From contig JANXBH010000013.1 in NCBI GenBank assembly GCA_025060695.1, positions 1 through 46,529 on the forward strand: DNA of 46,529 nt. The letters are read 5' to 3'. A program made the position numbers and the translations under genes. Positions 10,096 to 44,979 of the stretch are shown here, piece after piece (positions within the stretch are counted from its first letter, which is position 1; the number at the start of each line of letters is the position of its first letter). The DNA comes from Caldifarciminota bacterium. GTDB lineage: Bacteria; Hydrothermota; Hydrothermia; LBFQ01; DSFT01. A model generated the notes under the pieces. It was given only the letters and a program-made list of their open reading frames with translations, had not been told where the DNA came from and made no database searches.

Positions 10096-10137
10096 AAGAT
10101 GTAAATTTTAAAGTTTTTTAACCTTAAAATTTTCTTT
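10096..10137. promoter_or_regulatory. Divergent leaderless promoters, lpxH / metG
   Basis: A 42-bp space holds two back-to-back boxes. The minus-strand hexamer TAAAAT at 10105-10110 precedes the lpxH TTG by 9 bases. The plus-strand hexamer at 10125-10130 precedes the metG ATG by 7 bases. Fourteen bases separate the hexamers, so any -35 element of one promoter would overlap the other's -10 or its coding start. Confidence 0.7.
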
Positions 10138-12120
10138 ATGTATAGAAGAATTCTTATAACAAGTGCACTACCATATGCGAATGGACCACTACACATTGGG
10201 CACTTAGCTGGAGCTTATTTACCTGCAGATATATATACAAGATTTCAAAAATTAAAAAATAGAGATGCAATACATATATGCGGGACAGATGAGCATGGAG
10301 TAGCAATTACACTGTCAGCAAAGAAAGAAAACAAAACACCAAAAGCACTTGTAGATTATTATCATGAAAATATAAAAAATACATTTAGTAGAATTGGTAT
10401 ATATTTTGAAAACTTTTCAAGAACTACGAGGAAACTGCATTATGAACTTTCACAGTCATTTTTCTTATCTATTTACAATAAGGGTTATATTGAAAAAAGG
10501 AAAGTAAAGCAGTTTTATTGTGAGAATGATAAAATTTTTCTTCCGGACAGATATATTACAGGGACTTGTCCATATTGTAATTATGATAAAGCAAGAGGAG
10601 ACCAGTGTGAAAAGTGTGGAAAGTGGTTAGAGCCAACTGAACTAATAGAACCAAGATGCACTCTTTGTAATTCAGGACCAGTACTAAAAGATAGTTTTCA
10701 ATACTTCTTTAAGTTAAATGAATTTGAGGAAAGACTAAGGGAATATATAGCAAGTAAAAAGAATAAGTGGAAAGAGAATGTATTGAACTTTGTAGATAAT
10801 TGGCTAAGAGAGGGATTAAAGCCAAGAGCAATTACGAGGGACTTAGAATGGGGAGTGCCTGTACCACTTGAAGAAGCAAAGAACAAGGTTTTATATGTAT
10901 GGTTTGATGCACCAATAGGATATATCTCTTCTACTAAGGAATGGTCTAAAGATAATTGGGAAAAGTATTGGAAAGATAAAGATACTAAGATAGTTCACTT
11001 TATCGGTAAGGATAATATAGTCTTTCATTCAATTGTATGGCCTGCAATGTTAATGGCAGAAGGTTCATATAATTTACCTGATGAAATTCCTGCAAATGAA
11101 TTTTTGAATTTAATGGGAGATAAGATTTCAACAAGTAGGAATTGGGCACTTTGGTTAGATGAATTGCTTGATAGATTTGAGCCAGATTATATTAGATTTT
11201 TTATTGCTTATATTATGCCTGAGTATAAGGACAGCGACTTTAATTTACATGACTTTAAGGATAGAGTAAATAATGAGCTTATAAATAAATATGGAAATTT
11301 AATAAGTAGGACACTTAGCTTTATAGTAAACTTCTTTGAAAGCAAAATTCCAGATGTTGAACTAAGTGAAGAAAATATTAAGGATTTTAATGAAATTAAA
11401 AAATACATCTCTGAAGCTGAAAATTATATAGAAAATTTTGAATTTAGGAAAGCACTAAGTACAATTCTATCTGGGGTAGACTATATAAATGCATATATAG
11501 ATAGGCAAAAACCTTGGAATTTGATAAAGTATGACAAAGAACAAGTAAAAAGAGTAATATTTACAACTATTCAGCTTATTAGGTCCATTTCTATTTCCTT
11601 TGAACCATATATTCCGTTTTCTACAAAGAAAGTATTAGATGCAATTGGAGTTTTAAATTATAATTGGGATAGTGCAAAAGAAATAGATTATTCAATAAAA
11701 GGAAAAGGTATAAAAAACATAGGGAATTTATATAAAAAGATTGAGGACAAGGAAATACAAGAATTGTTAAGTATTTTACACTCAAGGGTATTAAAGGAGA
11801 AAAACTACATTACATATGAAGAGTTTTCAAAATTAGATATTAGAGTTGGAAAAGTAGTAAGTGCACAAAGAGTAGAAAAGTCAAGGAAATTATTGAAACT
11901 ATTAATAAGTCTTGGAAATGAAAAAAGACAGATTATAGCAGGTATAGGAGAAAGCTATACTCCTGAGAGTTTAATAAACAAGAATGTAATAGTTGTAGTA
12001 AATTTAGAGCCAAAGAAGATTATGGGTTTAGAGAGTAATGGTATGCTACTTGCAGCAGGAGAAAAGCCTATAATTTTAACAACAGATGGAGACGTTGAAG
12101 AAGGTAGTAAGGTAAAATAA
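10138..12120 (+). CDS. metG: Methionyl-tRNA synthetase with C-terminal tRNA-binding domain
   Basis: A 660-residue class I synthetase that charges tRNA-Met. The signature HIGH is at 19-22 (GPLHIGH). A double zinc knuckle with CPYC/CEKC and CTLC pairs lies around residues 140-180. The KMSKS equivalent reads KISTSRN near residue 330. An anticodon-binding helical domain follows, and residues from about 565 form an EMAP/Trbp111-type tRNA-binding domain (KLDIRVGKVVSAQRVEKSRKL, AGIGESYTPE, NLEPKKIMGLESNGMLLAA). It is the first gene of a plus-strand run and has no Shine-Dalgarno sequence, only the upstream CTTAAAATTT box. Confidence 0.97.
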   Translation: MYRRILITSALPYANGPLHIGHLAGAYLPADIYTRFQKLKNRDAIHICGTDEHGVAITLSAKKENKTPKALVDYYHENIKNTFSRIGIYFENFSRTTRKLHYELSQSFFLSIYNKGYIEKRKVKQFYCENDKIFLPDRYITGTCPYCNYDKARGDQCEKCGKWLEPTELIEPRCTLCNSGPVLKDSFQYFFKLNEFEERLREYIASKKNKWKENVLNFVDNWLREGLKPRAITRDLEWGVPVPLEEAKNKVLYVWFDAPIGYISSTKEWSKDNWEKYWKDKDTKIVHFIGKDNIVFHSIVWPAMLMAEGSYNLPDEIPANEFLNLMGDKISTSRNWALWLDELLDRFEPDYIRFFIAYIMPEYKDSDFNLHDFKDRVNNELINKYGNLISRTLSFIVNFFESKIPDVELSEENIKDFNEIKKYISEAENYIENFEFRKALSTILSGVDYINAYIDRQKPWNLIKYDKEQVKRVIFTTIQLIRSISISFEPYIPFSTKKVLDAIGVLNYNWDSAKEIDYSIKGKGIKNIGNLYKKIEDKEIQELLSILHSRVLKEKNYITYEEFSKLDIRVGKVVSAQRVEKSRKLLKLLISLGNEKRQIIAGIGESYTPESLINKNVIVVVNLEPKKIMGLESNGMLLAAGEKPIILTTDGDVEEGSKVK

Positions 12121-12123
12121 AAG

Positions 12124-12139
12124 CTTTAAAATTTTGATA
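12124..12139 (+). promoter_or_regulatory. Leaderless-type promoter of fabH
   Basis: GCTTTAAAATTTT with TAAAAT at 12127-12132, 7 bases before ATG 12140, right after the metG stop. An in-frame TTG at 12134 lies only two bases past the hexamer, so it is not the likely start. Confidence 0.65.
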
Positions 12140-13114
12140 ATGTATTCTAAAATATTATCTATTGGTTCGTATGTCCCAAAGAATATTTTAACGAATCAGG
12201 ATTTAGAAAAGATTGTAGAAACTTCTGATGAATGGATAACTGAAAGAAGTGGTATAAAGGAAAGAAGGATAGCAAGTAAAAATGAAACTTCTTCTGTTTT
12301 AGGATATTATTCATCTTTAAAAGCACTTGAGAGAGCGAATTTAAAACCCTCTGATATAGACTTAGTTATATGTGCTACTAATACTCCTGATATGCAATTC
12401 CCTGCTACAGGATGTTTAGTTGCAAGTCTTTTGAATATAAAAGTTCCATGCTTTGATTTAGAGGCTGGTTGTCCAGGAGTAATATATGCACTTGAAGTTG
12501 CAAGAGCTTTAATTGAAGCAGGTTTATATAGAAATATATTAGTTGTAACCAGTGAGACGTTAAGCAGGTATATGGATTGGAGTGATAGGACTACATGTGT
12601 GCTTTTTGGAGATGGAGCTAGTTCTTTTATTTTGACAAGAAGTGATGAGCCGGGTATTATTTCTTCGTATTTAATGGGAGATGGAAATTTAGGAGAGTTA
12701 TTGAAATTTCCTGCAGGTGGAAGTAGACAGCCCGCAAGTATCATAACTGTAAAAAATAGAGAGCATGGAGTAAAAATGCAAGGTAGGGAAGTTTTTAGAT
12801 ATGCTGTTGGTTATATGGCTGATGCATGTATAAAATCGTTAGATAAAGCAAATTTAACTCCTGACGATATAGATTGGTTAGTTCCTCATCAGGCTAATAT
12901 AAGAATTATTGATGCAACTGCAGAAAAATTAAACATACCAAAAGAAAAAGTATATGTAAATATTCAAAGGTATGGAAATACTTCAGTGGCTTCTATTGGA
13001 ATTGCATTAGATGAAATGATAGAGAGTAATTTATTGAAAAAGGGACAAAATGTTCTAATTGTTTCATTTGGTGCTGGTTTTACTTGGGGTGCTATGGTAT
13101 TTAGATATATATGA
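12140..13114 (+). CDS. fabH: 3-oxoacyl-ACP synthase III (KAS III)
   Basis: A 324-residue condensing enzyme that starts fatty acid synthesis by joining an acyl-CoA primer to malonyl-ACP. The catalytic triad can be placed: Cys at about 111 (EAGCPGVIYAL), His at about 250 (VPHQANIRI) and Asn at about 280 (YGNTSVAS). ERSGIKERR and FGDGASSF are further family stretches. ATG 12140 is chosen over the in-frame TTG at 12134 because it fits the promoter spacing. The gene is followed without a gap by an lptC-like gene (ATGA overlap), linking envelope lipid synthesis and LPS export. Confidence 0.93.
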   Translation: MYSKILSIGSYVPKNILTNQDLEKIVETSDEWITERSGIKERRIASKNETSSVLGYYSSLKALERANLKPSDIDLVICATNTPDMQFPATGCLVASLLNIKVPCFDLEAGCPGVIYALEVARALIEAGLYRNILVVTSETLSRYMDWSDRTTCVLFGDGASSFILTRSDEPGIISSYLMGDGNLGELLKFPAGGSRQPASIITVKNREHGVKMQGREVFRYAVGYMADACIKSLDKANLTPDDIDWLVPHQANIRIIDATAEKLNIPKEKVYVNIQRYGNTSVASIGIALDEMIESNLLKKGQNVLIVSFGAGFTWGAMVFRYI

Positions 13115-13623
13115 GATTTATAATTCTTATATTTTTCATAGCTTGCACTAAAAAGGTAGAAAATAAGTTAGATGAGAATATTATAAGCTATGTGCAAAAA
13201 GTTGATACAGGTAATATTTTTGAATACGAAAATAGTGAAAAAACTTGGGAGATAGAAGCTGATAAAATTGTTGACTTAAATAATATTTATGTAGTAAAGA
13301 ACTTTAAGATAAAGTTTTACGATAATGGACAAGTTTCCGCAATATTAACTGCTGACTCAGGTATAATGGAAAAAAGTACAAAAAATATGAAAGCTTTCGG
13401 GAATGTGGTTTTTCTATCAAGTGATAGTTCATTTTTAAAAACAGGAAGATTATATTGGCAGGATGCATATAGGAAAATTCATACTGATGATAGTGTATAT
13501 ATATACGACGCAAAGAACAAAAGGGAGTTATGGGGTATAGGTTTTGAAAGTGATGATAGATTTAAAAATATTAGGATATTGAAAAATGTTAGGGGAAGAG
13601 GAGAAGGAAAGGTTATTAAATGA
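13111..13623 (+). CDS. lptC: LptC-like LPS export lipoprotein
   Basis: A 170-residue protein with a short lipoprotein signal ending in the lipobox FFIAC (Cys12). A beta-rich repeat domain resembles LptC/OstA: WEIEADKIVDLNNIYVVKNF, KFYDNGQVSAILTADSG, MKAFGNVVFLSSDSSFLKT and LYWQDAYRKIHTDDSVYIYD. LptC is anchored in the inner membrane and passes LPS from the LptBFG transporter to LptA. Classical LptC has a transmembrane anchor, and lipid-anchored versions occur in other phyla. The start overlaps the fabH stop (ATGA). No other lpt gene is in the window. Confidence 0.72.
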   Translation: MRFIILIFFIACTKKVENKLDENIISYVQKVDTGNIFEYENSEKTWEIEADKIVDLNNIYVVKNFKIKFYDNGQVSAILTADSGIMEKSTKNMKAFGNVVFLSSDSSFLKTGRLYWQDAYRKIHTDDSVYIYDAKNKRELWGIGFESDDRFKNIRILKNVRGRGEGKVIK

Positions 13624-13849
13624 AGTAGCTAACCGTATAGTAAAAATGAGACTTTCTGATGTTGCAATATTTTTATTAGAAAGTTCAAAACCTATATCAT
13701 TTTTATCATCTCAATTTTTAATATTCTTAAGACCTTTTATTAGTGTATATTTTAGCCCCCAAACATATGACAAACTCATTGAGATTTTAAATGATAGAAA
13801 CAATATAGAGAAACTTATAAAACTTATAGAAGAAAAGGAGGGTAGGTAA
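13586..13849 (+). CDS. Small conserved-looking protein of unknown function (87 aa)
   Basis: Not recognised by name. The 87 residues read as mostly helical: a charged start (MLGEEEKERLLNEVANRIV), a more hydrophobic middle (SDVAIFLLESSKPISFLSSQ, FLRPFISVYF) and a charged end (RNNIEKLIKLIEEKEGR). The middle could associate with the membrane peripherally. The start overlaps the lptC-like gene by 38 bases in another frame, and the stop overlaps the next start (TAATG), so the gene is embedded in the fabH operon. I recall similar short proteins in other thermophilic bacteria but cannot name a family. Confidence 0.6.
   Translation: MLGEEEKERLLNEVANRIVKMRLSDVAIFLLESSKPISFLSSQFLIFLRPFISVYFSPQTYDKLIEILNDRNNIEKLIKLIEEKEGR
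13836..13841 (+). promoter_or_regulatory. Ribosome binding site of the 367-aa gene
   Basis: AGGAGG seven bases before ATG 13849, inside the 3' end of the 87-residue gene. It supports the start of the next gene, which would otherwise be uncertain. Confidence 0.65.
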
Positions 13850-14952
13850 TGCTGATATTTATCTTATCTCAAAGTGAGATACTATATAATATACAGATTA
13901 TATCAAGTTATGATAAAAATAAGGAGGTTTCTCTCAGAACGCCTTTTAGTATAAATAAAGCTTCAGTTGATAGAAGAGTTTACTATAGAATAGATACAAC
14001 TGTAAATAGTCTTGAGAATATTGATATTTTGATATTTGATAAAAAGACAAAGAAGGAAAAAATAATTCCTTTGCCTAAGTTTTTAGAACCAAAATACTTG
14101 GATATATCATTAGGTGAAACACTAAAGGTATCATTTAATTTCCTTGGCTTTCCCATTAGTGAGTTTGAATTTCCAAGGGTATATATAATATCTGACCAAG
14201 GAGAGAGTGAAGCTTTTTTATTACAGCAAGATCCATATAATAAGGAGGTTTTAGTACGTAAATTAGAACCTATTGATGAAATTGGAAATTATAAGCTAGC
14301 TCTTGTTATCAATCATCCAAGACAATTAATAGAGATTAGGATTTATAGAATATTGAACGTTGTTTATAAACCTATCTATAAACTTTTTGAAATGAGTTAT
14401 GGATTTTCAGGACAGGCTGCTTATTTATGCTTACAGATATTAAATAAACTACCTAATACAATTTCAGAAGAATATAATGTACTAATCTTAGATGCTTCTA
14501 ATATACCTATTAGTATGAAGTTGAGAAACTATGGCAATTATTCCTGTGGTATTTTTACACCTAATTCAGCAGGTAATTATACAGCAAAATTAGAAGGCAG
14601 ATATAAGGGTGTAATTTCTTCAAAAGTCGTAGAGTTTAATATTATTGATTCTATTAATTTTGAGATACCGATAAAATTTGTAGGATTTGAACTAAAGAAG
14701 AATAAGGGATTTATAAAACTTGAAAATATGAGCAATAGACCTATAGTATTGAGTATAGAAGCAGTTGAAGCACCACCCGAGATAAATTTTAATATATCAG
14801 GCTCTTATACAATATCAAAAAACACTATTATTCCATTTGAATATAAGTTTCTTAAGAAGGTCAAGAAGAATTCAAACCATTACATAAGAATTAAGTTTAG
14901 GGATGAAAACAATAGACCGTTCTTTTTGGATATTAAACTTTCAGTCTTGTAA
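13849..14952 (+). CDS. Beta-rich secreted or surface protein of unknown function (367 aa)
   Basis: No family recognised. The N-terminus is weakly hydrophobic (MLIFILSQSEILYNIQII), possibly a short signal peptide without an obvious cleavage site. The remainder is strand-rich with few helices and is repeatedly punctuated by segments such as FEFPRVYIISDQGESEAF, IGNYKLALVIN and AGNYTAKLEGRYKG, which look like Ig-like beta-sandwich modules. The C-terminal third reads like an accessory beta domain (FIKLENMSNRPIVLSIEA). It has a strong ribosome site and is the last gene before a 77-bp space, so it probably ends the fabH operon. An extracytoplasmic location is inferred from composition. Confidence 0.6.
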   Translation: MLIFILSQSEILYNIQIISSYDKNKEVSLRTPFSINKASVDRRVYYRIDTTVNSLENIDILIFDKKTKKEKIIPLPKFLEPKYLDISLGETLKVSFNFLGFPISEFEFPRVYIISDQGESEAFLLQQDPYNKEVLVRKLEPIDEIGNYKLALVINHPRQLIEIRIYRILNVVYKPIYKLFEMSYGFSGQAAYLCLQILNKLPNTISEEYNVLILDASNIPISMKLRNYGNYSCGIFTPNSAGNYTAKLEGRYKGVISSKVVEFNIIDSINFEIPIKFVGFELKKNKGFIKLENMSNRPIVLSIEAVEAPPEINFNISGSYTISKNTIIPFEYKFLKKVKKNSNHYIRIKFRDENNRPFFLDIKLSVL

Positions 14953-15010
14953 TAGTATAATTACCATTAAGAAAAGCTAACCGATTCCTAAAGTATACGT
15001 GGTTAAAGAA

Positions 15011-15029
15011 CTTTAAAATTATAATATAA
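15011..15029 (+). promoter_or_regulatory. Leaderless-type promoter of the zinc-ribbon protein gene
   Basis: ACTTTAAAATTA with TAAAAT at 15014-15019, 10 bases before ATG 15030. It ends a 77-bp intergenic space in which I see no other signal and no terminator hairpin. Confidence 0.6.
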
Positions 15030-16391: not shown

Positions 16392-16882
16392 AGCGCTTTA
16401 TAATTTTCACTATGGTATTTATTTTACTTTCATTAATTGAGGTTGAAGTGCATGGTCTTTTAAATGCAGGTGATGGATATATCGTGGTTCTTTCAGATAA
16501 AAAAAGTAAAAGCAAGTTCCTTACTATGACTATCGGTAAAACTGAAGGAGAAGCGATTATGATAGCAAAAGAAAGCATTATGACGCCAAGACCTCTTACT
16601 CATGAATTAGCATTTAATTTAGTTAAGAATCTTGATGGAGAAATAAGCCGTATTGAGATATATGACCTAAGAGATGGTGTATACTACGCTAAAATATACC
16701 TTACAAAAAAAACTTTTATTTTTAAAACACAAAAAGTTATAGATTCAAGACCAAGTGATGCTATAGCGCTTGCACTAAGGTTTAATGCAAAAATACTTGT
16801 AAATGAAAAACTTCTTGAAGAGATTAGAATTTCCCCTTTTGAGAAAATAGAAGAAAAGAGAAGAAGGTTTTTTGATATATAA
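16388..16882 (+). CDS. Bifunctional nuclease-domain protein (BFN/DUF151) with hydrophobic N-terminus
   Basis: Residues from about 18 onward match the BFN domain: IEVEVHGLL, MTPRPLTHELAFNL, YDLRDGVYYAKIYL and DSRPSDAIALALR. Members of this family have been reported to act as nucleases on DNA and RNA. The usual protein starts directly at the IEVEV strand, but here a hydrophobic segment (FIIFTMVFILLSL) precedes it. The start is GTG at 16388, overlapping the zinc-ribbon gene stop. Either the domain is membrane-tethered or secreted, or a shorter start is used, for instance the ATG nine codons in. It ends 3 bases from the convergent HhH-barrel gene. Confidence 0.8.
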   Translation: MKRFIIFTMVFILLSLIEVEVHGLLNAGDGYIVVLSDKKSKSKFLTMTIGKTEGEAIMIAKESIMTPRPLTHELAFNLVKNLDGEISRIEIYDLRDGVYYAKIYLTKKTFIFKTQKVIDSRPSDAIALALRFNAKILVNEKLLEEIRISPFEKIEEKRRRFFDI

Positions 16883-20053: not shown

Positions 20054-20067
20054 ACTGAAATTTTAAT
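20054..20067 (-). promoter_or_regulatory. Internal leaderless-type promoter of the dehydrogenase gene
   Basis: ATTAAAATTTC on the minus strand, hexamer TAAAAT at 20060-20065, six bases before ATG 20053. The hexamer contains the TAA stop codon of the upstream gene, so the 3' end of one gene doubles as the next promoter. Confidence 0.5.
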
Positions 20068-20770
20068 GTATCACAATTTCTATATGAAAATTCTTAAATT
20101 TCTCTTTTAAATATGGATTTACTATTATGCTGGTTGAGATTACATCACAGTCAACAGCATTTTCTCCAATTACAAGCACATCTAATTTTCTTTTTATAAC
20201 TTTTCCTATTTTAGGATTATAAATATGATAGCTATTATCAATAGGTCTAATAGATGAAGAAATTGAAAGTGATTTATTATATAGCTTAATCTCACCGAAA
20301 GTTTCACTATATAATTCAAAATTGTAGTTTCTAGAATAAATAGAACTGCTTCCAAAATCTATATAGAAAGTATCTAAGCCAAAGTCCAAAAGTATTTCTT
20401 TTATTTTATCAACTACGTATCCCTTTACTATACCACCTAAGTCAATTTTTAGTCCCTTTGGGAAAAACCACTTTCTCTTACTAATCCTTACTGGGTATAG
20501 ATTTCTTGATTTATAAAAAATGTTAAAAGTGCTATCAGTTATTATGAGATAATTTAGAGCTAAAGTGAGAATCTCGTCAGTTTCTTCTTCTAAAAATATA
20601 GTATCTCCGTTTCCTTCAAAGCCTTCGTAATACTTATACCATATTGAATTTAGATAGTTTGCATATTTAAATGCGGAATCAACTGCTACAATTGAAATAC
20701 TATCATTTTCAATTATCCCTATTTTTAGAATACTTCCCATTATAAATTGTGCTCTAACTAAGAATTCCAT
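20063..20770 (-). CDS. Divergent FAD:protein FMN transferase (ApbE-like)
   Basis: A 235-residue protein with a weak but ordered set of ApbE motifs: MGSILKIGI near the start, LKIDLGGIVKGYVVDKI at about 115-131, FYIDFGSSSI, then SSIRPIDNSYHIYNPKIGK and CDVISTSI near the end, matching the family's metal and FAD sites. ApbE proteins move FMN from FAD onto threonines of flavoproteins such as Rnf/Nqr subunits, in the periplasm. It is shorter than typical members (about 300) and lacks a clear signal or lipobox, so it may act in the cytoplasm or be degenerate. The start overlaps the bi-domain oxidoreductase by 13 bases. Confidence 0.7.
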   Translation of the reverse strand: MEFLVRAQFIMGSILKIGIIENDSISIVAVDSAFKYANYLNSIWYKYYEGFEGNGDTIFLEEETDEILTLALNYLIITDSTFNIFYKSRNLYPVRISKRKWFFPKGLKIDLGGIVKGYVVDKIKEILLDFGLDTFYIDFGSSSIYSRNYNFELYSETFGEIKLYNKSLSISSSIRPIDNSYHIYNPKIGKVIKRKLDVLVIGENAVDCDVISTSIIVNPYLKEKFKNFHIEIVIH

Positions 20771-22773: not shown

Positions 22774-22808
22774 ATTATATAATTTTATAGTATACTTTAA
22801 AATTTGGT
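22774..22808. promoter_or_regulatory. Divergent leaderless promoters, bi-domain oxidoreductase / guaB
   Basis: The shortest divergent space, 35 bp. Minus-strand TAAAAT at 22782-22787 (within CTATAAAATTA) lies 8 bases before ATG 22773. Plus-strand TAAAAT at 22798-22803 (within CTTTAAAATTT) lies 5 bases before ATG 22809. Only 10 bases separate the two hexamers. Confidence 0.7.
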
Positions 22809-27455: not shown

Positions 27456-27494
27456 AAACTAAATTTTAAAGTGGAAAACTTTAAAATTTTTAAT
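27456..27494. promoter_or_regulatory. Divergent leaderless promoters with 12-bp inverted repeat, tpiA / ribB
   Basis: A 39-bp space with a perfect inverted repeat: AAATTTTAAAGT at 27461-27472 and ACTTTAAAATTT at 27478-27489, five bases apart. Hexamers are at 27463-27468 (minus, 7 bases before the tpiA ATG) and 27482-27487 (plus, 7 bases before ATG 27495). A GTG at 27471 in frame with ribB falls between the boxes and is not the start. Confidence 0.75.
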
Positions 27495-30457: not shown

Positions 30458-30500
30458 ATGCCAAAATTTTAATCTATGCTTTAACTTTAAAATTTTTCAT
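30458..30500. promoter_or_regulatory. Divergent leaderless promoters, folD / SIMPL-like gene
   Basis: A 43-bp space with minus-strand TAAAAT at 30466-30471 (8 bases before the folD ATG) and plus-strand TAAAAT at 30488-30493 (7 bases before ATG 30501). Sixteen bases separate the hexamers. No Shine-Dalgarno sequence precedes either gene. Confidence 0.7.
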
Positions 30501-35233: not shown

Positions 35234-35249
35234 AATTAAAATTTTAAAG
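35234..35249 (-). promoter_or_regulatory. Leaderless-type promoter of paaA-paaB-DUF1122-mutS
   Basis: GCTTTAAAATTTT on the minus strand, hexamer TAAAAT at 35241-35246, 7 bases before ATG 35233 and partly inside the 3' end of the Wzz-like gene (stop at 35244). It separates the paaA unit from the recJ/Wzz unit upstream. Confidence 0.65.
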
Positions 35250-36716: not shown

Positions 36717-38341
36717 TACTTTATAAATTTTAAAGCAGATATGTTCAAACTGTCCTTATTAAGAAAATTATCACTAAATTGAAATATTAAATCAACAATA
36801 TCTCCGGCTTTCAGATTTAGCCATTCTTCATTTATATTGCTTATTTTTGACTTTAAGGTTAATTTCCCATTTGAAAATAGAATTTCCATATTATTTTTGC
36901 TTTTGTTTACAGAAATAACTTTTAAATTTTTGTGCAAAAATCTAAAATGTTCATTTCCAATACCAAAAGGTGATAGCTTTATATAGTCTAAAATAAAATT
37001 TCTGTTTATATCTTCGGCTTTAATTTCAGTCTCATAGTCATAAACTCTTTTTAATTGTTCTTCCTTTATCTCATTTTTTGCAATTTTCTCTATCTCATTT
37101 TTAAAAAGTTCTATATTTTCGGTTTTTATAGTAAATCCACCTGCCATTTTGTGCCCCCCAAATTCTTCCAACAAATGCGATAATTTTGATAGTGCTTTTT
37201 GAATATGAAAACCTTCTATACTTCTACAGCTACCTTTTGATATTTCTCCAAGTTTTGAAATAACAATTACTGGTCTATAGAATATTTCCGCTATTTTGCT
37301 TGCAACGATACCAATTACTCCTTCATGCCAACCCCAATCACTAAGAACTAAAACGTATCTATCTAAATTTTCTATTGCTTGTTTAATTGCTCCTTTCATA
37401 ATTTTCTTTTGCTCCATTTGCCTATTTAAATTTAGTTTATTTAGTAAATTTGAAATCCTCAATACTTCTTCTCCGTCTTTAGAAATTAGAAGTTTAAATG
37501 CATAATCAGGAGTTGCCATTCTACCTGCTGCATTTATTCTTGGTGCAATAATAAAGGAAATATGCCATGGTAAAATTTTACCGTTTATCCCTGATATATA
37601 TTTAATAGCCTTTATACCTGCCTTTTTACTCTTATTTAAGACTATAATTCCATATTTCGTGAGTATTCTATTTTCATAAACTAAATCTCCCATATCCGCT
37701 ATTGTGCCAATAGCTACAAGGTCTAAGTCCCACAGTAGTAAATTCATACTTTTATTAAACTTCTTATATAAAGCACTAACTAACTTATATACTACTCCAA
37801 CCCCTGTAAGATAGACTAATTTATGACTTTTACCTATTTTAGGATGGACTATGGAGCTTGCTTTTGGTAATATATCCAATGGTTCATGGTGATCAGTTAT
37901 AATTACTTCAATGCCTTCATCTATTGCTTTTTTTACCTCTTCTATTGCTGTTATGCCGCAATCAACCGTTATAATTAATCCTACCCCTTCTCTCTTTGCT
38001 AATTCAATTGATTTTTCTGAAAAACCATATCCTTCCATAAATCTATCTGGAATATAGGGTATTATCTTACTTTCATCGTATATATGAGATAATGTTCTAT
38101 ATAATAGTGCAAGTGATGTAATACCATCCGCATCATAATCTCCATGTATTAGAATTTTGTTTCTATTTCTTATATGTTTTTCTATAATTTCAACACTTTC
38201 CCTAATACCTTCAATATTTAGTGGATCTTCTAAGTCCATTACTGTTGCATTTAACATGTAGTCTAAATATTCCTCGCTTATTCCTCTTTTTCTAAGAACT
38301 TCTAATATAATTTCATTCCGAATAGTCTCTATATTCTTCAT
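36716..38341 (-). CDS. recJ: Single-strand-specific exonuclease RecJ
   Basis: A 541-residue DHH-family 5'-3' exonuclease. Motifs in order: LIHGDYDADGITSLALL, LIITVDCGITA, the DHH triad in VIITDHHE, IADMGDLV, APRINAAGRMA, and DHHA1 with FGGHKMAGGFTI, then an OB-like C-terminal domain. RecJ acts in recombination and in base-excision and mismatch repair. I use ATG 38341 (MKNIETIRNE), which follows GAGGAG very closely; a TTG at 38350 is the alternative. Its 5' end overlaps the NTR-like gene by 29 bases. The 3' end contains the Wzz promoter. Confidence 0.93.
   Translation of the reverse strand: MKNIETIRNEIILEVLRKRGISEEYLDYMLNATVMDLEDPLNIEGIRESVEIIEKHIRNRNKILIHGDYDADGITSLALLYRTLSHIYDESKIIPYIPDRFMEGYGFSEKSIELAKREGVGLIITVDCGITAIEEVKKAIDEGIEVIITDHHEPLDILPKASSIVHPKIGKSHKLVYLTGVGVVYKLVSALYKKFNKSMNLLLWDLDLVAIGTIADMGDLVYENRILTKYGIIVLNKSKKAGIKAIKYISGINGKILPWHISFIIAPRINAAGRMATPDYAFKLLISKDGEEVLRISNLLNKLNLNRQMEQKKIMKGAIKQAIENLDRYVLVLSDWGWHEGVIGIVASKIAEIFYRPVIVISKLGEISKGSCRSIEGFHIQKALSKLSHLLEEFGGHKMAGGFTIKTENIELFKNEIEKIAKNEIKEEQLKRVYDYETEIKAEDINRNFILDYIKLSPFGIGNEHFRFLHKNLKVISVNKSKNNMEILFSNGKLTLKSKISNINEEWLNLKAGDIVDLIFQFSDNFLNKDSLNISALKFIK
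36717..36735 (-). promoter_or_regulatory. Leaderless-type promoter of the Wzz-like gene, inside recJ
   Basis: The last codons of recJ (Ala-Leu-Lys-Phe-Ile-Lys) read GCTTTAAAATTTATAAAG on the minus strand. The hexamer TAAAAT is at 36727-36732, 10 bases before ATG 36716. Promoter and coding sequence overlap completely. Confidence 0.55.
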
Positions 38342-38636
38342 ACTCCTCAATATAGCTATTGCCCATGCATTTGTTCGTTATAAAGTAGTTATCTTTCTTT
38401 TTTAGAAAAAACCTATATAGCTTATTTTTTTCAAAGTTATATGCACATTCTTTATCATTTTTTATGATTATTATACTATCATTTATCTGCTTTATTGGAT
38501 TTATTACTCTTGAGACTATTTCATCTTCCTTTATATCTATAACTAATCCTTCAAAGGAAGCATCAGCATTTTCAATAGCTTTAATATATGTCAAAGGCTC
38601 ACATTTACAGTTTTCTATTAATATTAAAAGAAACAT
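38313..38636 (-). CDS. Small secreted TIMP/NTR-like protein
   Basis: A 107-residue protein with a short hydrophobic start (MFLLILIEN) directly followed by CKCEP. The spacing of later elements, IENADASFEGLVIDI, then NDKECAYNFEKNKLYRFFL and TNKCMGNS, fits the tissue-inhibitor-of-metalloproteinase/netrin (NTR) pattern of CxC, ADxxFxGxV and paired distal cysteines, which occurs in bacterial lipoproteins too. Four cysteines could form two disulfides. The first Cys may be lipidated, though the lipobox is poor. ATG 38636 is chosen because it fits the promoter spacing. It is the first gene of the recJ unit. Confidence 0.55.
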   Translation of the reverse strand: MFLLILIENCKCEPLTYIKAIENADASFEGLVIDIKEDEIVSRVINPIKQINDSIIIIKNDKECAYNFEKNKLYRFFLKKKDNYFITNKCMGNSYIEEYEEYRDYSE

Positions 38637-38679
38637 AGTATGCAAATTTTAAAGTTTTAATTAACTTTAAAATTTCAAA
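38637..38679. promoter_or_regulatory. Divergent leaderless promoters with 13-bp inverted repeat, NTR-like gene / GT9 gene
   Basis: A 43-bp space with AAATTTTAAAGTT (38644-38656) and AACTTTAAAATTT (38663-38675) as perfect inverted arms, six bases apart. Hexamers are at 38646-38651 (minus, 9 bases before ATG 38636) and 38668-38673 (plus, 6 bases before the GTA at 38680 that occupies the expected start). Confidence 0.72.
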
Positions 38680-39588
38680 GTAAAAAAGGTTTTAATTATT
38701 AGACTTGGACAACTTGGAGATGTTGTCCTAACAACAAGTGTAATTGAAGCACTTTATCATAGAAACTATGAAATTCACTATTTAACAAGAAGACCATTTA
38801 ATGAAATATTCATAGATGATTATCGTATAAGAAAGATATTTATTGAAAAAGAAACAAGTATTTTTGAGTTATTTAAAGAGAAGTACGATTTGGTCTTGGA
38901 TTTACATTCAAAATTAAAAACGATAATTTTATCTAAACTTATAAATCCATTAAATTCAAAAACTTACGATAAAAGAATATTACAAAGGAGATTAACACTT
39001 TATTTTAAAAAGCCAATTAATAAAAAGAGAATATACGAAATGTACAATGAAACCATAAACGCATACGAAAGACCAAAGCTAATAGTAAAAGGAGAACCAA
39101 TAGTAGATGGAGACTACATAGTAATAAATCCAACGGCAAGATATCCATCAAGAATATATAGGCATTACGATAAACTTGATAAACTTTTAGATAAATTAAG
39201 TCTTAAAAAAGTATACATAGGGACAAATGATGACTTACATTTTTTAAAAGGTACTAAATTTAACGGAATAAATCTCATTGGTAAAACTAGTATAAGGGAA
39301 ATGTTAATAATTGTAAAGTATGCAAAGCTTTTTATCGGAAATGATAGTGGTATAGCACATATAGCAAGTGCATTTAATATTCCAAGTATTGTATTTTTCG
39401 GACCAACAATTTTAAGTTTTGGTTTTGAACCATTTTCGGATAAATATAAAGTCTTTGAAGTTAAATACCTACCTTGTCGTCCATGTTCATTACATGGTGA
39501 AAAGCCATGCAAAAGAAAAGATTATGCATGTTTAAGTTGGATAGAACCTGAACTTGTCCTTGATGAAATTCTACAAATGCTTAATTAA
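38680..39588 (+). CDS. Glycosyltransferase family 9 (heptosyltransferase-like), non-standard start
   Basis: A 302-residue GT9 enzyme of the LPS core or surface glycan type. The N-terminal stretch KKVLIIRLGQLGDVVLTTS is intact, as is the nucleotide-sugar site LFIGNDSGIAHIASAFNIPS plus FFGPTILSFGFEP; a cysteine-rich tail (PCRPCSLHGEKPC) is typical of the family. The open frame runs from 38671 after a stop at 38668 but contains no ATG, GTG or TTG before the TTG at 38890, which would delete the whole first domain. The codon at the position expected from the promoter and from homologues (before KKVLIIR) is GTA at 38680. I use it as the start. Confidence 0.78.
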   Translation, partial: VKKVLIIRLGQLGDVVLTTSVIEALYHRNYEIHYLTRRPFNEIFIDDYRIRKIFIEKETSIFELFKEKYDLVLDLHSKLKTIILSKLINPLNSKTYDKRILQRRLTLYFKKPINKKRIYEMYNETINAYERPKLIVKGEPIVDGDYIVINPTARYPSRIYRHYDKLDKLLDKLSLKKVYIGTNDDLHFLKGTKFNGINLIGKTSIREMLIIVKYAKLFIGNDSGIAHIASAFNIPSIVFFGPTILSFGFEPFSDKYKVFEVKYLPCRPCSLHGEKPCKRKDYACLSWIEPELVLDEILQMLN

Positions 39589-39785
39589 TTTGCTATATTA
39601 TTTTAAAGTTTTAAATTTAATCTATTCATTTTTAATAATTTATCTAATAAGACAATTTAAAATTTGCTTATTTTGTCAAAATAGTTTAGAATTTTGTATT
39701 CATTGAAATACAAGTGTTATAATAATTCGTCATATTAAAGTTGTATTTTTTAAATTATCTACTTGAATAAAAGTGGCTTAACCTT
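39589..39785. other. AT-rich intergenic region with a small inverted repeat
   Basis: The longest gene-free stretch before the CRISPR array, about 200 bp. It holds scattered TTTAAA-type sequences and one inverted repeat, TTGTATT (39694-39700) and AATACAA (39707-39713), six bases apart. The repeat lacks a following T-run, so it is more like an operator or chance repeat than a terminator. No DnaA-box cluster, tRNA or ORF was seen. Confidence 0.4.
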
Positions 39786-39797
39786 TAAAATTTGGGA
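39783..39797 (+). promoter_or_regulatory. Leaderless-type promoter of murB-ftsA-ftsZ
   Basis: CCTTTAAAATTT with TAAAAT at 39786-39791, 6 bases before ATG 39798. TTGAAT lies exactly 17 bases before the hexamer (39763-39768), the only convincing -35-like match I found beside a box. Confidence 0.68.
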
Positions 39798-40649
39798 ATG
39801 ATTTTTCAAGGAGAATTGATTAAAAACCATACTACTATTAAAATTGGCGGTTATGTAAAGTATTTTTCACAACCAAAAACACTCGACGAACTTATTTATA
39901 TTGTCAAATTGGCAAGGGATAAAGACTTAAAAATAATTCCTATTTCAAATGGTTCAGATATTATATTTGCTGACTATGATTTAGATATAGTAGTGATAAA
40001 ACTTGATAAATTAAAAGGTATAGAGGTTTACGACGACTTAGTAGAAATTATGGTTGGAGAAGGATTGCCAAGAGTTGCGATATATTTAGAAGATTTAGGT
40101 TTGAGTGGTTTTGAGTATTTATATGGTATTCCAGGTAAAATTGGCGGTGCTATAAGTAAAAACGCAGGGGCATATGGTATGGAAATTAAGGATTTGCTCT
40201 TAAAAGCTTATATAGTTAGTTGGGATGGTGAACTAATAGAATTAGGAAAGGATAAATTAAATTTAAGATATAGAGACTCGGATGTGCTAAAATACGGTGT
40301 TTTATATAAAGCTCTATTCAAGCTAAGAAAAGATAGTCCTGAAAGTATTAAATTAAGAAGAGAAAGTTTATCTGAAAGAAGAAAGCTAACTCAACCTTAT
40401 GGTGTTTTTACCGCAGGTTGTATGTTTAAAAATCCTAATGGCTATAGTGCGGGAAGGTTAATTGAAAGTGTTGGACTTAAGGGTTATAAAATAGGTGATG
40501 TAGTTATTTCGAATAAACACGCAAATTTCTTTATAAATTTAGGAGATGGAAAGTTTGATGATGTAATGAAGCTTATGGATATGGCAAAAGAGCGAGTGTA
40601 TGAAAATTATGGAATATTATTAGAGGAGGAGGTTGTAATAGTAAGATGA
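39798..40649 (+). CDS. murB: UDP-N-acetylenolpyruvoylglucosamine reductase
   Basis: A 283-residue MurB, which reduces UDP-GlcNAc-enolpyruvate to UDP-MurNAc with NADPH and FAD in peptidoglycan synthesis. FAD-binding stretches are IKIGGYVKYF, YGIPGKIGGAISKNAGAYG and NLRYRDS. The active-site loop reads TAGCMFKNPNG: the position of the proton-donating serine in the Escherichia coli enzyme (GSFFKNP) is a cysteine here. The catalytic glutamate lies in ILLEEEVVIV. ATG 39798 is preferred over TTG 39792 because of promoter spacing. The stop overlaps ftsA (ATGA), so no ftsQ intervenes. Confidence 0.93.
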   Translation: MIFQGELIKNHTTIKIGGYVKYFSQPKTLDELIYIVKLARDKDLKIIPISNGSDIIFADYDLDIVVIKLDKLKGIEVYDDLVEIMVGEGLPRVAIYLEDLGLSGFEYLYGIPGKIGGAISKNAGAYGMEIKDLLLKAYIVSWDGELIELGKDKLNLRYRDSDVLKYGVLYKALFKLRKDSPESIKLRRESLSERRKLTQPYGVFTAGCMFKNPNGYSAGRLIESVGLKGYKIGDVVISNKHANFFINLGDGKFDDVMKLMDMAKERVYENYGILLEEEVVIVR

Positions 40650-41875
40650 AAGACTATGTAGTTGCTATAGATTTAGGTTCAGCAACTATAAAAGCAGGTT
40701 TAGGTCATAAGTCTCATAATGGTATAGAAATTGTGGCAATATACGAGACTCCTTCGTATGGTATAAAACGCGGTATGATAAATAATACTCAAAAGGTTTC
40801 TGAAAGTATAAAAAAAGCAGTTGAGGGTTTAAGCAAATTAACTGATATTGAAAAGTTTGAATACTTTCCAGTTGTTGTAGGAGTAAATGGAAAAAATATA
40901 TTCACAGCAAAAAGTTCAAAAGGAATGATATCCACGAGGGTCAATAAACCTATAGACGACAATGATATTAAGAGGGTTATTGAGCAAGCGAAGATTGGAG
41001 CGGTAATACCAAATGAGCACGAAATACTATACGTTCATCCAAATGTCTTTCATGTGGATAGTCTTAAAAATATTAAAAATCCAATTGGTATGTATGCTCG
41101 TAGGTTAGAAGTTGAAGCATATGTAGTAAGTGTAGAATCATTGATATTAAAGAATATAAGAGCTATATTAAATAATGCAGGTATAAGTAATGCGGACATA
41201 TACTTAAATGTCATTGCACAAAAATATGGTATATTAGATGAGGAGGATACTGATAGTCTAATTATTGTTGATATTGGAAAGCATCTTACAACGCTTAGCC
41301 TTTGGGATAGTAATGGTTTAGACTACGTTACGGTTTATGAACAGGGTATAGTAGATATTCTCAGTGAAATTTCAAAAGAAGTGATGATACCGAGTGGAAC
41401 TTGTGAAAGTATTTTAAAAAGCATTATCATAAATAGTGTATACGACATAGATTACGAAGATCAGGAAATTGAAATTAATGATAGTAGAAGATCTCAAACT
41501 TTAAAGGTTAGTTCACGTTTAGTTTATAATATTATTGAAAGTGTTGTTTCTAAGATATTTTCAAGGATTTATGCAGATATTGAAAAGACTGGATTTTTGA
41601 AAAGATTTTCTACTCCAAGTCTTTATATATCAGGAGGCATCGCAGAAATTAAAGGTATTGAAGTATTAGCAGAAAACATTTTCAATCTTCCAGTTTATAT
41701 TGCAAAGGTATCCTTAAAAGTAAATAATCAGTCATATTTAGGTCCAAGATATATAACTCTTGCAGGTTTAATCAAGTTGTATTTTGATTCTCCGGGAAAT
41801 GAAATTAAGAAAAATAACAAGAATAAGAGTTTTATTGATGTTATTATTACTAAGTTAAGGGAAATGTTAGAGTAG
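40646..41875 (+). CDS. ftsA: Cell division protein FtsA
   Basis: A 409-residue actin-fold ATPase that tethers FtsZ to the membrane. Phosphate-binding motifs are AIDLGSATIKAGLG at 7-20 and LIIVDIGKHLTTLSLW in the second half, with the adenosine motif in YISGGIAEIKGIE. The 1C subdomain unique to FtsA lies at about 85-165 (FYPVVVGVNG onward). The C-terminus ends in an amphipathic-looking IDVIITKLREMLE, like the FtsA membrane-targeting helix. It overlaps murB and is followed by ftsZ ten bases later with a strong ribosome site. Confidence 0.93.
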   Translation: MKDYVVAIDLGSATIKAGLGHKSHNGIEIVAIYETPSYGIKRGMINNTQKVSESIKKAVEGLSKLTDIEKFEYFPVVVGVNGKNIFTAKSSKGMISTRVNKPIDDNDIKRVIEQAKIGAVIPNEHEILYVHPNVFHVDSLKNIKNPIGMYARRLEVEAYVVSVESLILKNIRAILNNAGISNADIYLNVIAQKYGILDEEDTDSLIIVDIGKHLTTLSLWDSNGLDYVTVYEQGIVDILSEISKEVMIPSGTCESILKSIIINSVYDIDYEDQEIEINDSRRSQTLKVSSRLVYNIIESVVSKIFSRIYADIEKTGFLKRFSTPSLYISGGIAEIKGIEVLAENIFNLPVYIAKVSLKVNNQSYLGPRYITLAGLIKLYFDSPGNEIKKNNKNKSFIDVIITKLREMLE

Positions 41876-41879
41876 GAGG
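41874..41879 (+). promoter_or_regulatory. Ribosome binding site of ftsZ
   Basis: AGGAGG six bases before ATG 41886, overlapping the ftsA stop codon region. A clear Shine-Dalgarno site for an internal operon gene, against the leaderless pattern of first genes. Confidence 0.8.
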
Positions 41880-41885
41880 TAGGTT

Positions 41886-42977
41886 ATGCTTAGAGAAGAT
41901 TATCCTGAGATATACTACATGGATGATAACCAAAGTGCAAAGATAGCAGTCATAGGTGTTGGTGGTGGAGGGACGAATGCACTGAACTACATGATAAAGA
42001 AGGGTATAGATAACGTCATTACTATTGCTGCAAATACGGATATTCAGCATCTTGAGAACTCGTATGCGGAATATAAACTTACACTTGGTAAGAGTGTTTC
42101 AAAAGGTAGAGGGGCTGGTTCTAATCCAGAAGTAGGTAGAAGGTCTGCTGAGGAAAGTGTAGATGAAATTAGGCAGCTCATTAGAGATGTAGATGTAGTT
42201 ATTATTTCCGCAGGTATGGGTGGTGGAACAGGGACTGGTGCTTCTCCTGTAATAGCAAGAGTAGCAAGGGAAATGGAAAAATTAGTTATTGCAGTCGTTA
42301 CTAAGCCTTTTTCAAGCGAAGGTCAAAATAAATTGAAAAAAGCTCAAGTAGGTATAAGGGAACTTGCTCAAAATGTTGATTCAATTATTGTAATAGCGAA
42401 TGATGAAATAATAAAGAAAAAAGAACTGAAATTTCATCAAGCTTTATCACTTGCGGATGAGGTTTTATATAAAACAGTAAAAGCAATAGTTGATATTATA
42501 ATTAAACCAAGTTATATAAATGTGGACCTTGAGGATGTGAGAACTGTTCTAAAGAATGGAGGATATGCTATTGTTTCAGAAGGTGTTGGAAGAGGTGAAA
42601 GGAGAGCGGAAGAAGCATTGAAAAAAGCACTTGAAAATCCTCTAATTGATAATGTAAAGAGCATTCAGGGTGCAAAAGGTATATTAGTGAATATTCACTC
42701 AAGTCCTGAAAGTAGTGAATATTCAATAAGAACTGATGAGGTAAGTCAAATTTTAACAGGTATAAACAATGCTGCGTCAAGAGGAAGAAGCGATGTAGAA
42801 ATAATTCTTGGTCTTACTTTCGACGATAGCTTAAATGACGAAATAAGAATTATTCTTATTGCAGCAGGTATGGAGACATTGGTAAAATCAAATTATCAAA
42901 ACCAAAGAAGTGATTTAAACATTATTAGATACAGGCCTACATCTTCAATTTATATAGAAGATGTAGAGGAAGCTTAG
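41886..42977 (+). CDS. ftsZ: Cell division GTPase FtsZ
   Basis: A 363-residue tubulin-like GTPase that forms the division ring. The GTP site is complete: VIGVGGGGTNALN, AANTDIQHL, the tubulin signature GMGGGTGTGASPV, and TKPFSSEG; the T7 loop is NVDLEDVRTVL with the catalytic aspartates. After residue 340 the protein ends NIIRYRPTSSIYIEDVEEA. I do not see the usual C-terminal peptide (acidic-hydrophobic-P-x-F-h-R/K) that binds FtsA and ZipA, and the linker is short. The stop lies one base from the convergent topA stop. Confidence 0.96.
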   Translation: MLREDYPEIYYMDDNQSAKIAVIGVGGGGTNALNYMIKKGIDNVITIAANTDIQHLENSYAEYKLTLGKSVSKGRGAGSNPEVGRRSAEESVDEIRQLIRDVDVVIISAGMGGGTGTGASPVIARVAREMEKLVIAVVTKPFSSEGQNKLKKAQVGIRELAQNVDSIIVIANDEIIKKKELKFHQALSLADEVLYKTVKAIVDIIIKPSYINVDLEDVRTVLKNGGYAIVSEGVGRGERRAEEALKKALENPLIDNVKSIQGAKGILVNIHSSPESSEYSIRTDEVSQILTGINNAASRGRSDVEIILGLTFDDSLNDEIRIILIAAGMETLVKSNYQNQRSDLNIIRYRPTSSIYIEDVEEA

Positions 42978-42978
42978 T

Positions 42979-44958
42979 TTACTTTTTGTTTTCTAGTGCT
43001 TTCTTAATAAACTTTTGTGCATGAATAAAGCTTTCGTATGCCTTTTTTGGAACTTTTATACCTTTTTCACTTAGTTTGTTTAAAAGTTCAATTTGCTTTG
43101 GTGTAGGTTTAGAATGTTGTTTTAACCATTTTTCTAATTTCTTTTGACTTTTAAGTATTTCATCTTCTATTTTGATGTTTAGCTTTTTTGATAGTTCCAT
43201 AGCTAATTCTATTTGTTTTTTGGTTGGTGGTTTGTAGTTGTCTATCCATTTTGAAAGTTTATTTTTATCTTTTTTTATTTCTTCTTTTAGCTCAATATTT
43301 AGTTCTTTTGATAATTTTTCTGCAAGCTCTAATTGTTTTAAACTTGGTTTTGTATCTTGTAGTTTTTCATTAGCATCTTTTAACTTTTCATAAATCTCAC
43401 TTGCAACCACTTTCCAATCTAACTTACCTTCTTCAACAAGGTCCAAGTTTTCTTCCATCTTTGCAGTAAATTCGTAGTCAATTACCCAACTATATTCTGA
43501 ATTTAGCCAGTCTATTAATTTTTCTCCAAGTTCAGTTGGATAAAATACTCCATTTTTTAGTTTTACATATTTTCTTTGTTTTAATGTTTTAATAATTTGT
43601 GCATAAGTTGAAGGTCTTCCAATTCCAAGTTTTTCAAGCATTTTAACAAGTGTGCTTTCTGTATATCTTGGTGGTGGTTGAGTTTCTTTTTCTAATAGTT
43701 CTATATTTAGTTTTTCTAACTTTTCATTTTTTTCTAACTTAGGTAGTATTTCCATTTCAGGTAATTCATATAGTTTTCTCCATCCATCAAATACTAAATA
43801 TTTTCCTTCAGCTATTAGCTCATATTCACCTGCCTTTATAATAACCTTAGTCCTTTTCCATATCGCGCTCTCCATCTGACTTGCTATTGTTCTTTTCCAT
43901 ATTAGTTCGTATATCTTTAGTGTTTTTCCAGTTAGCTCTAGTGATTGTGGTTCTCTATTTTTGCTAATAATTGAAGGTCTGATAGCTTCATGTGCTTCTT
44001 GTGAAAACTTTTTACTTCTGAAAGTTCTAATTTTCTTATATAGATATTCTTCTCCTAATGATTGTTTTATGTAGTTTCTTAATTTTTTTACTACTTCTTC
44101 ACTTATTTTTACACTGTCAGTTCTATGATAAGTAATATATCCATTTTCGTATAACCATTGGGCTATTTTCATCGTTTCCTCGGGACTAATTTTTAAAATT
44201 TTGCTTGCATCTTGTTGTAGTGTTGAGGTTCTGTGCGGTTCAGGTGGTGCCTCTGCTTGCTCAGTTTCTTTTATTTCATATACTATATGTTCAGCTTCCT
44301 TAATTTCTTGAAGTATTTTTAAAGCATCTTCTTTTTGTTTTATGCTTTTTGGTAATTTAGCTATAAACTCTATGTTGTCTTTTTTATATAAAACTTGAAT
44401 TTGATAATATTTTTCAGGTTTAAACTCTCTTATTTCTCTTTCTCTTTCAACTATTAATCTTAGTGTGGGGCTTTGAACTCTACCTACTGATAGTTTTCCT
44501 CCAATTTTTTTACTTGCAAGTGGAGAAAGTAAATAACCAATTATTCTGTCAATAACTCTTCTTGAAAATTGAGCATGAACTCTATTTAAATCTATGTTTC
44601 TTGGATTTTCTAATGCTTTTTTTATTTCTTCTTTTATTATTGCATGGACTTCTATTCTCTTGTAATTTTTCGGCTTTATTCTCTCTACTACATGGTATGC
44701 TATAGCTTCTCCTTCTCTGTCTGGGTCAGTTGATATGTAGGTAATTTCTGCTTTTTGGGAGATTGACTTTAATTCTTTTATAACCTTTTGTTTTCCTTTT
44801 ATTGGAATAAAAAACATTTTAAAGTCTTCTAAATCTATGCCCATTTTATCTTCAGGTAAATCAACTATATGCCCAAGTGTAGATTTTACATAAAATCCTT
44901 TTACAAGCTTACTAATAGTTTTAGCTTTTGTAGGACTTTCAACTATTATAAGTTTCAT
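42979..44958 (-). CDS. topA: DNA topoisomerase I with three C-terminal tandem repeats
   Basis: A 659-residue type IA topoisomerase relaxing negative supercoils. Toprim motifs are IIVESPTKAKTI and YISTDPDREGEAIA; the catalytic tyrosine is Y277 in NGYITYHRTDS; SVGRVQSPTLRLI and LGIGRPSTYA are intact. The zinc fingers that usually follow are missing: no CxxC pair is seen. Instead residues 537-659 form three tandem repeats of about 40 residues, starting KPSLKQLELAEKLS, PPTKKQIELAMELS and KPTPKQIELLNKLS. Such helical repeats probably bind DNA. No Shine-Dalgarno sequence; a promoter box is 12 bases upstream. Confidence 0.95.
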   Translation of the reverse strand: MKLIIVESPTKAKTISKLVKGFYVKSTLGHIVDLPEDKMGIDLEDFKMFFIPIKGKQKVIKELKSISQKAEITYISTDPDREGEAIAYHVVERIKPKNYKRIEVHAIIKEEIKKALENPRNIDLNRVHAQFSRRVIDRIIGYLLSPLASKKIGGKLSVGRVQSPTLRLIVEREREIREFKPEKYYQIQVLYKKDNIEFIAKLPKSIKQKEDALKILQEIKEAEHIVYEIKETEQAEAPPEPHRTSTLQQDASKILKISPEETMKIAQWLYENGYITYHRTDSVKISEEVVKKLRNYIKQSLGEEYLYKKIRTFRSKKFSQEAHEAIRPSIISKNREPQSLELTGKTLKIYELIWKRTIASQMESAIWKRTKVIIKAGEYELIAEGKYLVFDGWRKLYELPEMEILPKLEKNEKLEKLNIELLEKETQPPPRYTESTLVKMLEKLGIGRPSTYAQIIKTLKQRKYVKLKNGVFYPTELGEKLIDWLNSEYSWVIDYEFTAKMEENLDLVEEGKLDWKVVASEIYEKLKDANEKLQDTKPSLKQLELAEKLSKELNIELKEEIKKDKNKLSKWIDNYKPPTKKQIELAMELSKKLNIKIEDEILKSQKKLEKWLKQHSKPTPKQIELLNKLSEKGIKVPKKAYESFIHAQKFIKKALENKK

Positions 44959-44979
44959 AATGTTCTTAAAATTTTAAAG
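44959..44979 (-). promoter_or_regulatory. Leaderless-type promoter of topA
   Basis: GCTTTAAAATTTTAAG on the minus strand, hexamer TAAAAT at 44971-44976, 12 bases before ATG 44958. This is the longest hexamer-to-start spacing in the window, so a leader of a few bases is possible. Confidence 0.6.

Follow-up and report, generated by a model that had tools for sequence, protein, structure and literature searches.

A near-invariant promoter-like box directly ahead of start codons points to largely leaderless transcription units in an uncultured WOR-3 bacterium

The stretch of DNA considered here (the window, 46,529 nt) is contig C4 of a 77-contig, 1.497 Mb assembly from an uncultured member of candidate division WOR-3 (Caldifarciminota; Hydrothermia-type), a genome referred to below as G000. 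It carries, among others, rpmA, metG, fabH, guaB, tpiA, ribB, folD, murB, ftsZ and topA, and directly ahead of many of its genes lies one and the same short box, whose exact 11-mer form, CTTTAAAATTT, occurs in 13 copies, every one of them 3–10 nt ahead of a start position. The sites, and the −35-like element that accompanies one of them, are as follows.

401–411 (−): CCGTAAAATTT, 5 nt ahead of start 395 of a gene that extends past the window edge
3617–3627 (−): exact box, 7 nt ahead of rpmA (L27)
10103–10113 (−): exact box, 7 nt ahead of an lpxH-like gene with a TTG start
10122–10132 (+): CCTTAAAATTT, 5 nt ahead of metG; divergent partner 10103–10113, gap 8 bp
12124–12134 (+): exact box, 5 nt ahead of fabH
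15011–15021 (+): CTTTAAAATTA, 8 nt ahead of gene 15030
16396–16406 (+): CTTTATAATTT, 5 nt ahead of gene 16412 (ATG)
20058–20068 (−): CATTAAAATTT, 4 nt ahead of the 3-hydroxybutyryl-CoA dehydrogenase gene 20053
22780–22790 (−): CTATAAAATTA, 6 nt ahead of gene 22773
22795–22805 (+): exact box, 3 nt ahead of guaB; divergent partner 22780–22790, gap 4 bp
27461–27471 (−): exact box, 5 nt ahead of tpiA
27479–27489 (+): exact box, 5 nt ahead of ribB; divergent partner 27461–27471, gap 7 bp
30464–30474 (−): GATTAAAATTT, 6 nt ahead of folD
30485–30495 (+): exact box, 5 nt ahead of gene 30501; divergent partner 30464–30474, gap 10 bp
35239–35249 (−): exact box, 5 nt ahead of a paaA-like gene; the box overlaps the preceding gene's end
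36725–36735 (−): exact box, 8 nt ahead of the Wzz/GNVR-type gene 36716, within the 3′ end of the upstream gene
38644–38654 (−): exact box, 7 nt ahead of gene 38636
38665–38675 (+): exact box, 4 nt ahead of a glycosyltransferase family 9 frame opening at 38680 (GTA); divergent partner 38644–38654, gap 10 bp
39763–39768 (+): −35-like TTGAAT, 17 bp upstream of TAAAAT in the murB box
39783–39793 (+): exact box, 4 nt ahead of murB
44969–44979 (−): exact box, 10 nt ahead of topA

The initial annotation of the window had listed 19 start codons preceded by TAAAAT, mostly within a near-invariant box. All 19 places have the box on the correct strand, its hexamer ending 5–12 nt before the start (3–10 nt for the 11-mer); 13 of the sites are exact CTTTAAAATTT, which accounts for every exact copy in the window, and the other six carry one or two mismatches. 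As that annotation also stated, the listed genes lack Shine-Dalgarno sites (0/19), and the internal genes 8254 (−) and ftsZ (41886, +) keep strong ones, both showing AGGAGG. Two entries needed amendment: the list omitted CTTTATAATTT at 16396–16406, and position 38680, counted among the start codons, is GTA, although a heptosyltransferase-like frame (Glyco_transf_9; 38665–39588, +, with its box) does open there, with no ATG, GTG or TTG before 38890. Either the assembly is in error at this GTA or the gene has a leaderless start of a non-standard kind.

For genome-wide counts most contigs of G000 were joined with the window into 1.36 Mb, all but about 137 kb of the genome, while G001, a genome of the same genus, was covered in smaller part; a home-made codon-usage caller found 1,265 genes in the 1.36 Mb, 1,255 of which entered the box and Shine-Dalgarno counts. 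G000 has 28.8% G+C overall and 18.9% in non-coding DNA. The 374 sites that show no more than one mismatch give the consensus (A/G)-C-T-T-T-A-A-A-A-T-T-T-(T), with frequencies of 0.94–1.00 across TAAAAT and the next TT, 0.91 for the C at −15 and 0.84 for the T at −14; upstream of the purine at −16 no position of these 374 sites holds more than 0.1 bit, which is to say that a −35 element is not generally conserved. The matrix over 14 positions amounts to 15.0 bits, where some 12.6 bits would be enough to mark 500 sites on both strands of 1.5 Mb. Exact CTTTAAAATTT occurs 352 times genome-wide as against 88 for the reversed word, a control count that is inflated, since TTTAAAATTT reads identically in both directions and part of the signal therefore sits inside the control; the reversed-genome control was dropped for the same reason. 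The 1.36 Mb contain 313 exact boxes whose distance to starts peaks at 4–8 nt, the end of the 11-mer mostly lying that far from the start codon and the end of TAAAAT 6–10 nt away. Nor is the motif equally common by composition alone: non-coding DNA of G000 holds 400 sites of at least 13 bits, whereas 60 column-permuted matrices gave a mean of 1.5 (maximum 5) and first-order Markov sequence gave 7.5.

Which genes carry the box is telling. Genes whose upstream neighbour lies on the opposite strand (divergent first genes) have a box no more than 28 nt away, one mismatch being allowed, in 232 of 344 cases (67%), with about one expected from shuffles; 222 of the 344 have a box of at least 11 bits within 10 nt. 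Where a same-strand neighbour ends 16–40 nt upstream, a box is found in 66 of 107 genes, and where it ends no more than 15 nt upstream, in 67 of 656 (about 10%). Since divergent and well-spaced genes have the box and tightly following genes seldom do, it marks transcription units, not genes.

RNA genes carry it as well. ARAGORN reports 42 tRNA and tmRNA genes in G000, and a box with at most one mismatch stands 5–15 nt before the mature 5′ end in 30 tRNA units and 26 nt upstream of the tmRNA; those without one are three single tRNAs, the tRNA-Ala behind 16S and seven downstream members of tRNA clusters. The 16S rRNA gene has an exact box 64 nt upstream. Its presence at tRNA, tmRNA and 16S rRNA genes identifies the box as a transcription element and not a translation signal, and because it comes as close as 5 nt to tRNAs and 3–4 nt to start codons, transcription would have to start within a few nucleotides of it. 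The same closeness excludes the box as a −35 element, and an archaeal-type TATA box, which lies about 22–27 nt before the transcription start, was likewise discarded, since starts would then fall inside the tRNAs.

A near box and a Shine-Dalgarno site are practically exclusive of one another. A box within 10 nt is found in 371 of the 1,255 genes, and only 2 of these 371 have a Shine-Dalgarno site, scored as GGAG or GAGG (0/222 for divergent first genes), compared with 182 of 582 operon-internal genes without a box (31%); the Fisher P is of the order of 1e-35, computed with slightly different row totals. The proposal that the genome divides its translation between two start modes is supported. 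It needs one refinement, in that a minority of boxes lie 11–80 nt upstream of starts, some with leaders that carry Shine-Dalgarno sites: where the box sits 20–39 nt upstream, mostly 20–33% of genes have such a site, and the groES-like and acyl-carrier-protein-like genes combine a box, a leader and a strong Shine-Dalgarno site. The anti-Shine-Dalgarno sequence CCTCCT is intact in 16S rRNA, and IF1-, IF3- and S1-like proteins are encoded. In about 830 kb of G000 neither riboswitches nor other families of leader RNA scored above the Rfam thresholds, a null result that is in line with missing 5′ leaders and proves nothing.

The initial annotation saw a −35 element only before murB. TTGAAT is indeed there at 17 bp, but "only" does not hold, since about 2–4% of promoters have a −35 element. 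Among 519 strong boxes, 13 have exact TTGAAA at a spacer of 17–18 bp, against 2.3 expected (1.1 per spacer elsewhere; Poisson P ~8e-7), and among the units with TTGA at this spacing are 16S rRNA, tmRNA, tRNA-Met, tRNA-Arg, an HU-like gene, a UMP-kinase-like gene, a unit whose promoter lies ahead of rpsM, and, in the window, murB. This spacing fixes the register: the box corresponds to the −10 element of a sigma-70 promoter, and the −35 element is an optional extra in a few percent of cases.

The pattern extends to relatives. G002, a genome of the same family in another genus, contains the 4,886-bp contig JALSOK010000027.1 of a WOR-3 metagenome-assembled genome (locus L160). In 228 kb of G002, at 50% GC, a de novo motif search yielded the same box, with flat flanking composition. 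Among 193 of its genes, a Shine-Dalgarno site is found in 1 of 71 with a box within 10 nt, 4 of 7 with a box at 11–30 nt and 55 of 115 with none; all 9 tRNA genes in the sequence examined have the box or a variant just upstream; and TTG occurs at a spacer of 16–18 bp in 20 of 171 promoters, against about 5 expected. As this relative, at 50% GC, has an identical box at the corresponding position, AT-richness is not its cause. Counts of TAWAATN{5,9}ATG against the N{15,19} spacing were 442/169 in G002, and the three genomes counted from the sister family gave 416/97, 302/59 and 327/65, although exact boxes show no enrichment there; elsewhere in the class and phylum most families have a ratio of about 1.0–1.4, with exceptions such as G016. 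Judged from these counts, leaderless spacing is order-wide and the fixed CTT...TT box a feature of the family. A few named WOR-3 loci have TATAAT just before ATG, in a small number of cases.

Taken together, RCTTTAAAATTT is very probably the −10 element of the main housekeeping promoter, normally working without a −35 element and giving leaderless mRNAs. The initial annotation had proposed a −10 element by which transcription begins on the start codon or right beside it, and this appears to hold, given that RNA genes have the same box, that a near box and a Shine-Dalgarno site exclude each other in two genera, that the 50% GC relative has the box at the same site, and that a small subset adds a −35 element at canonical spacing. 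Leaderlessness itself is strongly suggested by sequence. In molecular terms, RCTTTAAAATTT would be a −10 element with the hexamer TAAAAT at −12 to −7 and extensions to either side of it, so that it spans −16 to −5, presumably read by the housekeeping factor RpoD, which is intact; transcription would start some 6–8 nt past TAAAAT, so that about 370 of the 1,255 genes would have their start codon at or within a few nucleotides of the mRNA 5′ end. Such mRNAs, without a Shine-Dalgarno site, would be initiated via the leaderless route at the 5′-terminal start codon, and downstream genes of operons would use ordinary Shine-Dalgarno initiation or none that is visible. A few units (16S rRNA, tmRNA, some tRNAs, HU) would have an extra −35 element of the TTGAAA type 17–18 bp upstream, and some box promoters farther upstream would give a short leader carrying a Shine-Dalgarno site.

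Several observations weigh against this account. No recognisable box lies within about 80 nt of 74 of the 344 divergent first genes; distances of 7–10 nt from box to start would give leaders of 1–4 nt rather than zero; and with home-made gene calls part of the start codons will be wrong. In addition, region 4.2 of RpoD (L114:298-1923, −) retains the residues that contact the −35 element, which we take to be those aligned to E. coli R584, E585, R588 and Q589. These are kept in G000, G001, G002 and G003 alike, so −35 recognition is not lost, and a loss of it on the part of RpoD is unsupported as an explanation.

That the box is a −10 element read by some other specificity subunit (an extracytoplasmic-function factor, the third sigma factor or an unknown one) is improbable, though it is the alternative that fares best. 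G000 encodes three sigma-70-family factors, the upstream CTT is unlike the known TGn extension, and position 440 of RpoD (E. coli numbering), which contacts base −12, is Ile in G000 and Met in G001 instead of the Thr found in G002 and G003; in E. coli, RpoD T440I acts as a suppressor of a T-to-C mutation at −12 (PMC2613000). However, rRNA genes, tRNA genes and most first genes have the box, which is what one expects of a housekeeping factor, TAAAAT with TTGAAA at 17–18 bp is the signature of a group 1 sigma-70 factor, and G002 uses the same box with Thr440, so that the substitution is not the cause and serves as a lead only. We regard it as a shade less probable still that the box is not the promoter core but an operator that overlaps the promoters and binds a global transcription factor. 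Near-invariance over 12 bp is unusual in a −10 element and the inner TTTAAA is palindromic, but no other promoter core is seen around the box, housekeeping genes of all sorts have it, tRNA and rRNA genes included, and it is directional, and the −10 hexamer inside it is in register with such −35 elements as are present. A translation signal, that is, an AT-rich ribosome-binding element in place of Shine-Dalgarno sites, would explain why the box replaces them at a similar distance from start codons; this is very unlikely, and was rejected because of the boxes at RNA genes, their concentration at divergent first genes rather than at closely following ones, the coexistence of farther boxes with Shine-Dalgarno sites, and −35 elements at 17–18 bp, which would be senseless for it. 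A by-product of AT-rich intergenic DNA can be put aside as next to negligible: AT-rich 11-mers are common and two-mismatch matches in the window are mildly enriched (198 vs 161), yet all 13 exact window boxes precede starts with none elsewhere, and the permuted matrices, the Markov sequence and the flat-flanked motif of the 50% GC relative speak against it.

The boxes of divergent genes are packed tightly. G000 has 116 divergent box pairs within 120 bp, most with gaps of 0–13 bp, and no convergent pairs; the gap between the 11-mers is 0 in 10 pairs (AAATTTTAAAGCTTTAAAATTT, a type that is a perfect 22-bp palindrome) and 5–6 in 21 pairs, and divergent intergenic regions have a median of 55.5 bp. 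The window contributes five such pairs (10103/10122, 22780/22795, 27461/27479, 30464/30485 and 38644/38665). With gaps this small any −35 element would have to overlap the opposite box or lie past it, which leaves most of these promoters no room for one, and two polymerases would presumably be unable to bind one tight pair together. A host–virus link via the paired-box pattern was also considered and abandoned, as only three viral contigs matched and few other boxes occur there.

Start codons after the box are ATG in 282 cases, TTG in 57 and GTG in 38 (n = 377), which makes TTG the second commonest. Eleven further genes have candidate non-standard starts, namely four CTG (polA, lepB, lnt-like, lptF-like), four ATA, two ATT and the one GTA at 38680; the names of those outside the window (polA, lepB, lnt-like, lptF-like, murJ-like, IMPase-like, coaX-like) are ones that we presume from their N-termini. 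The ten CTG, ATT and ATA candidates in G000 lie at C11:58674+, C66:39395+, C66:45088-, C55:93450+, C3:45652-, C55:23641-, C66:63226-, C13:8755+, C11:96020- and C11:102819-. In G001, polA has ATG at nearly the same residue as the CTG candidate of G000. All of these, the GTA included, are candidates, near-cognate codons being frequent in such short stretches and errors in metagenome-assembled genomes being possible.

Most of what is documented on leaderless initiation comes from actinobacteria and Deinococcus-Thermus. The closest precedent is the −10 motif adjoining open reading frames of the latter, which lies 6–7 bp before the start codon of about a third of genes, with no Shine-Dalgarno site, works without a −35 element, is bound by RpoD and gives leaderless mRNA, as tested experimentally (PMC12340547). 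That motif is TANNNT, mostly TACACT, with three fixed bases (PMC12340547); TAAAAT, TAAACT and TATAAT all fit it here, but the WOR-3 consensus is far narrower, with 12 nearly fixed positions and 15 bits, adds CTT before and TT after the hexamer, belongs to another phylum and is found also at tRNA, tmRNA and rRNA genes. A signal resembling a −10 element, some 10 bp ahead of where translation starts, is likewise known from the TA-led (leaderless) genes surveyed in 953 bacterial genomes (Zheng 2011, PMC3160421) and from mycobacterial leaderless mRNAs (PMC3898074, PMC4633059). In mycobacteria, ATG and GTG alone work at the leaderless position while TTG and CTG fail (PMC4633059), unlike the present case, where TTG follows the box in 57 of 377 genes and CTG, ATA and ATT candidates occur. 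Extended −10 (TGn) promoters of E. coli show that upstream bases may likewise compensate for a missing −35 element, although pure ones without any −35 element or activator are, as quoted in review, not clearly known (PMC2613000); compared with T-15 G-14 in E. coli, the WOR-3 extension is CTT at −15 to −13 and belongs to what would be the standard promoter of the genome, not a minority class. Among open-licence papers we found none on leaderless genes in WOR-3 or Hydrothermae. As far as we found, then, the mechanism is known from Deinococcus and mycobacteria, and what is new is the lineage, the extreme form with a single box, the tightly packed back-to-back pairs and the candidate CTG, ATA and ATT starts.

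A broader reading, about which we are rather more doubtful than convinced, is that a whole order may have largely abandoned 5′ leaders, with one 12-bp word setting where transcription and translation both begin; within one family this word, at 15 bits, would have become self-sufficient, which would allow divergent packing at 0–13 bp, and leaderless initiation would accept UUG and even CUG, AUA and AUU. An uncultured lineage in which leaderlessness may be the default for transcription units would be a natural test of the minimal needs of a bacterial promoter and of whether leaderless initiation is, as has been claimed, ancestral. In practical terms, the box should forecast start sites nearly to the base across the lineage, flag start codons that gene callers miss, and give reporters or metatranscriptomes a precise, testable prediction.

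Apart from the boxes, the window contains a CRISPR array at 45072–46529 (+), with 22 repeats of the CRISPR-DR2 type reaching the window end, and its repeat family recurs in contigs C2 and C77.

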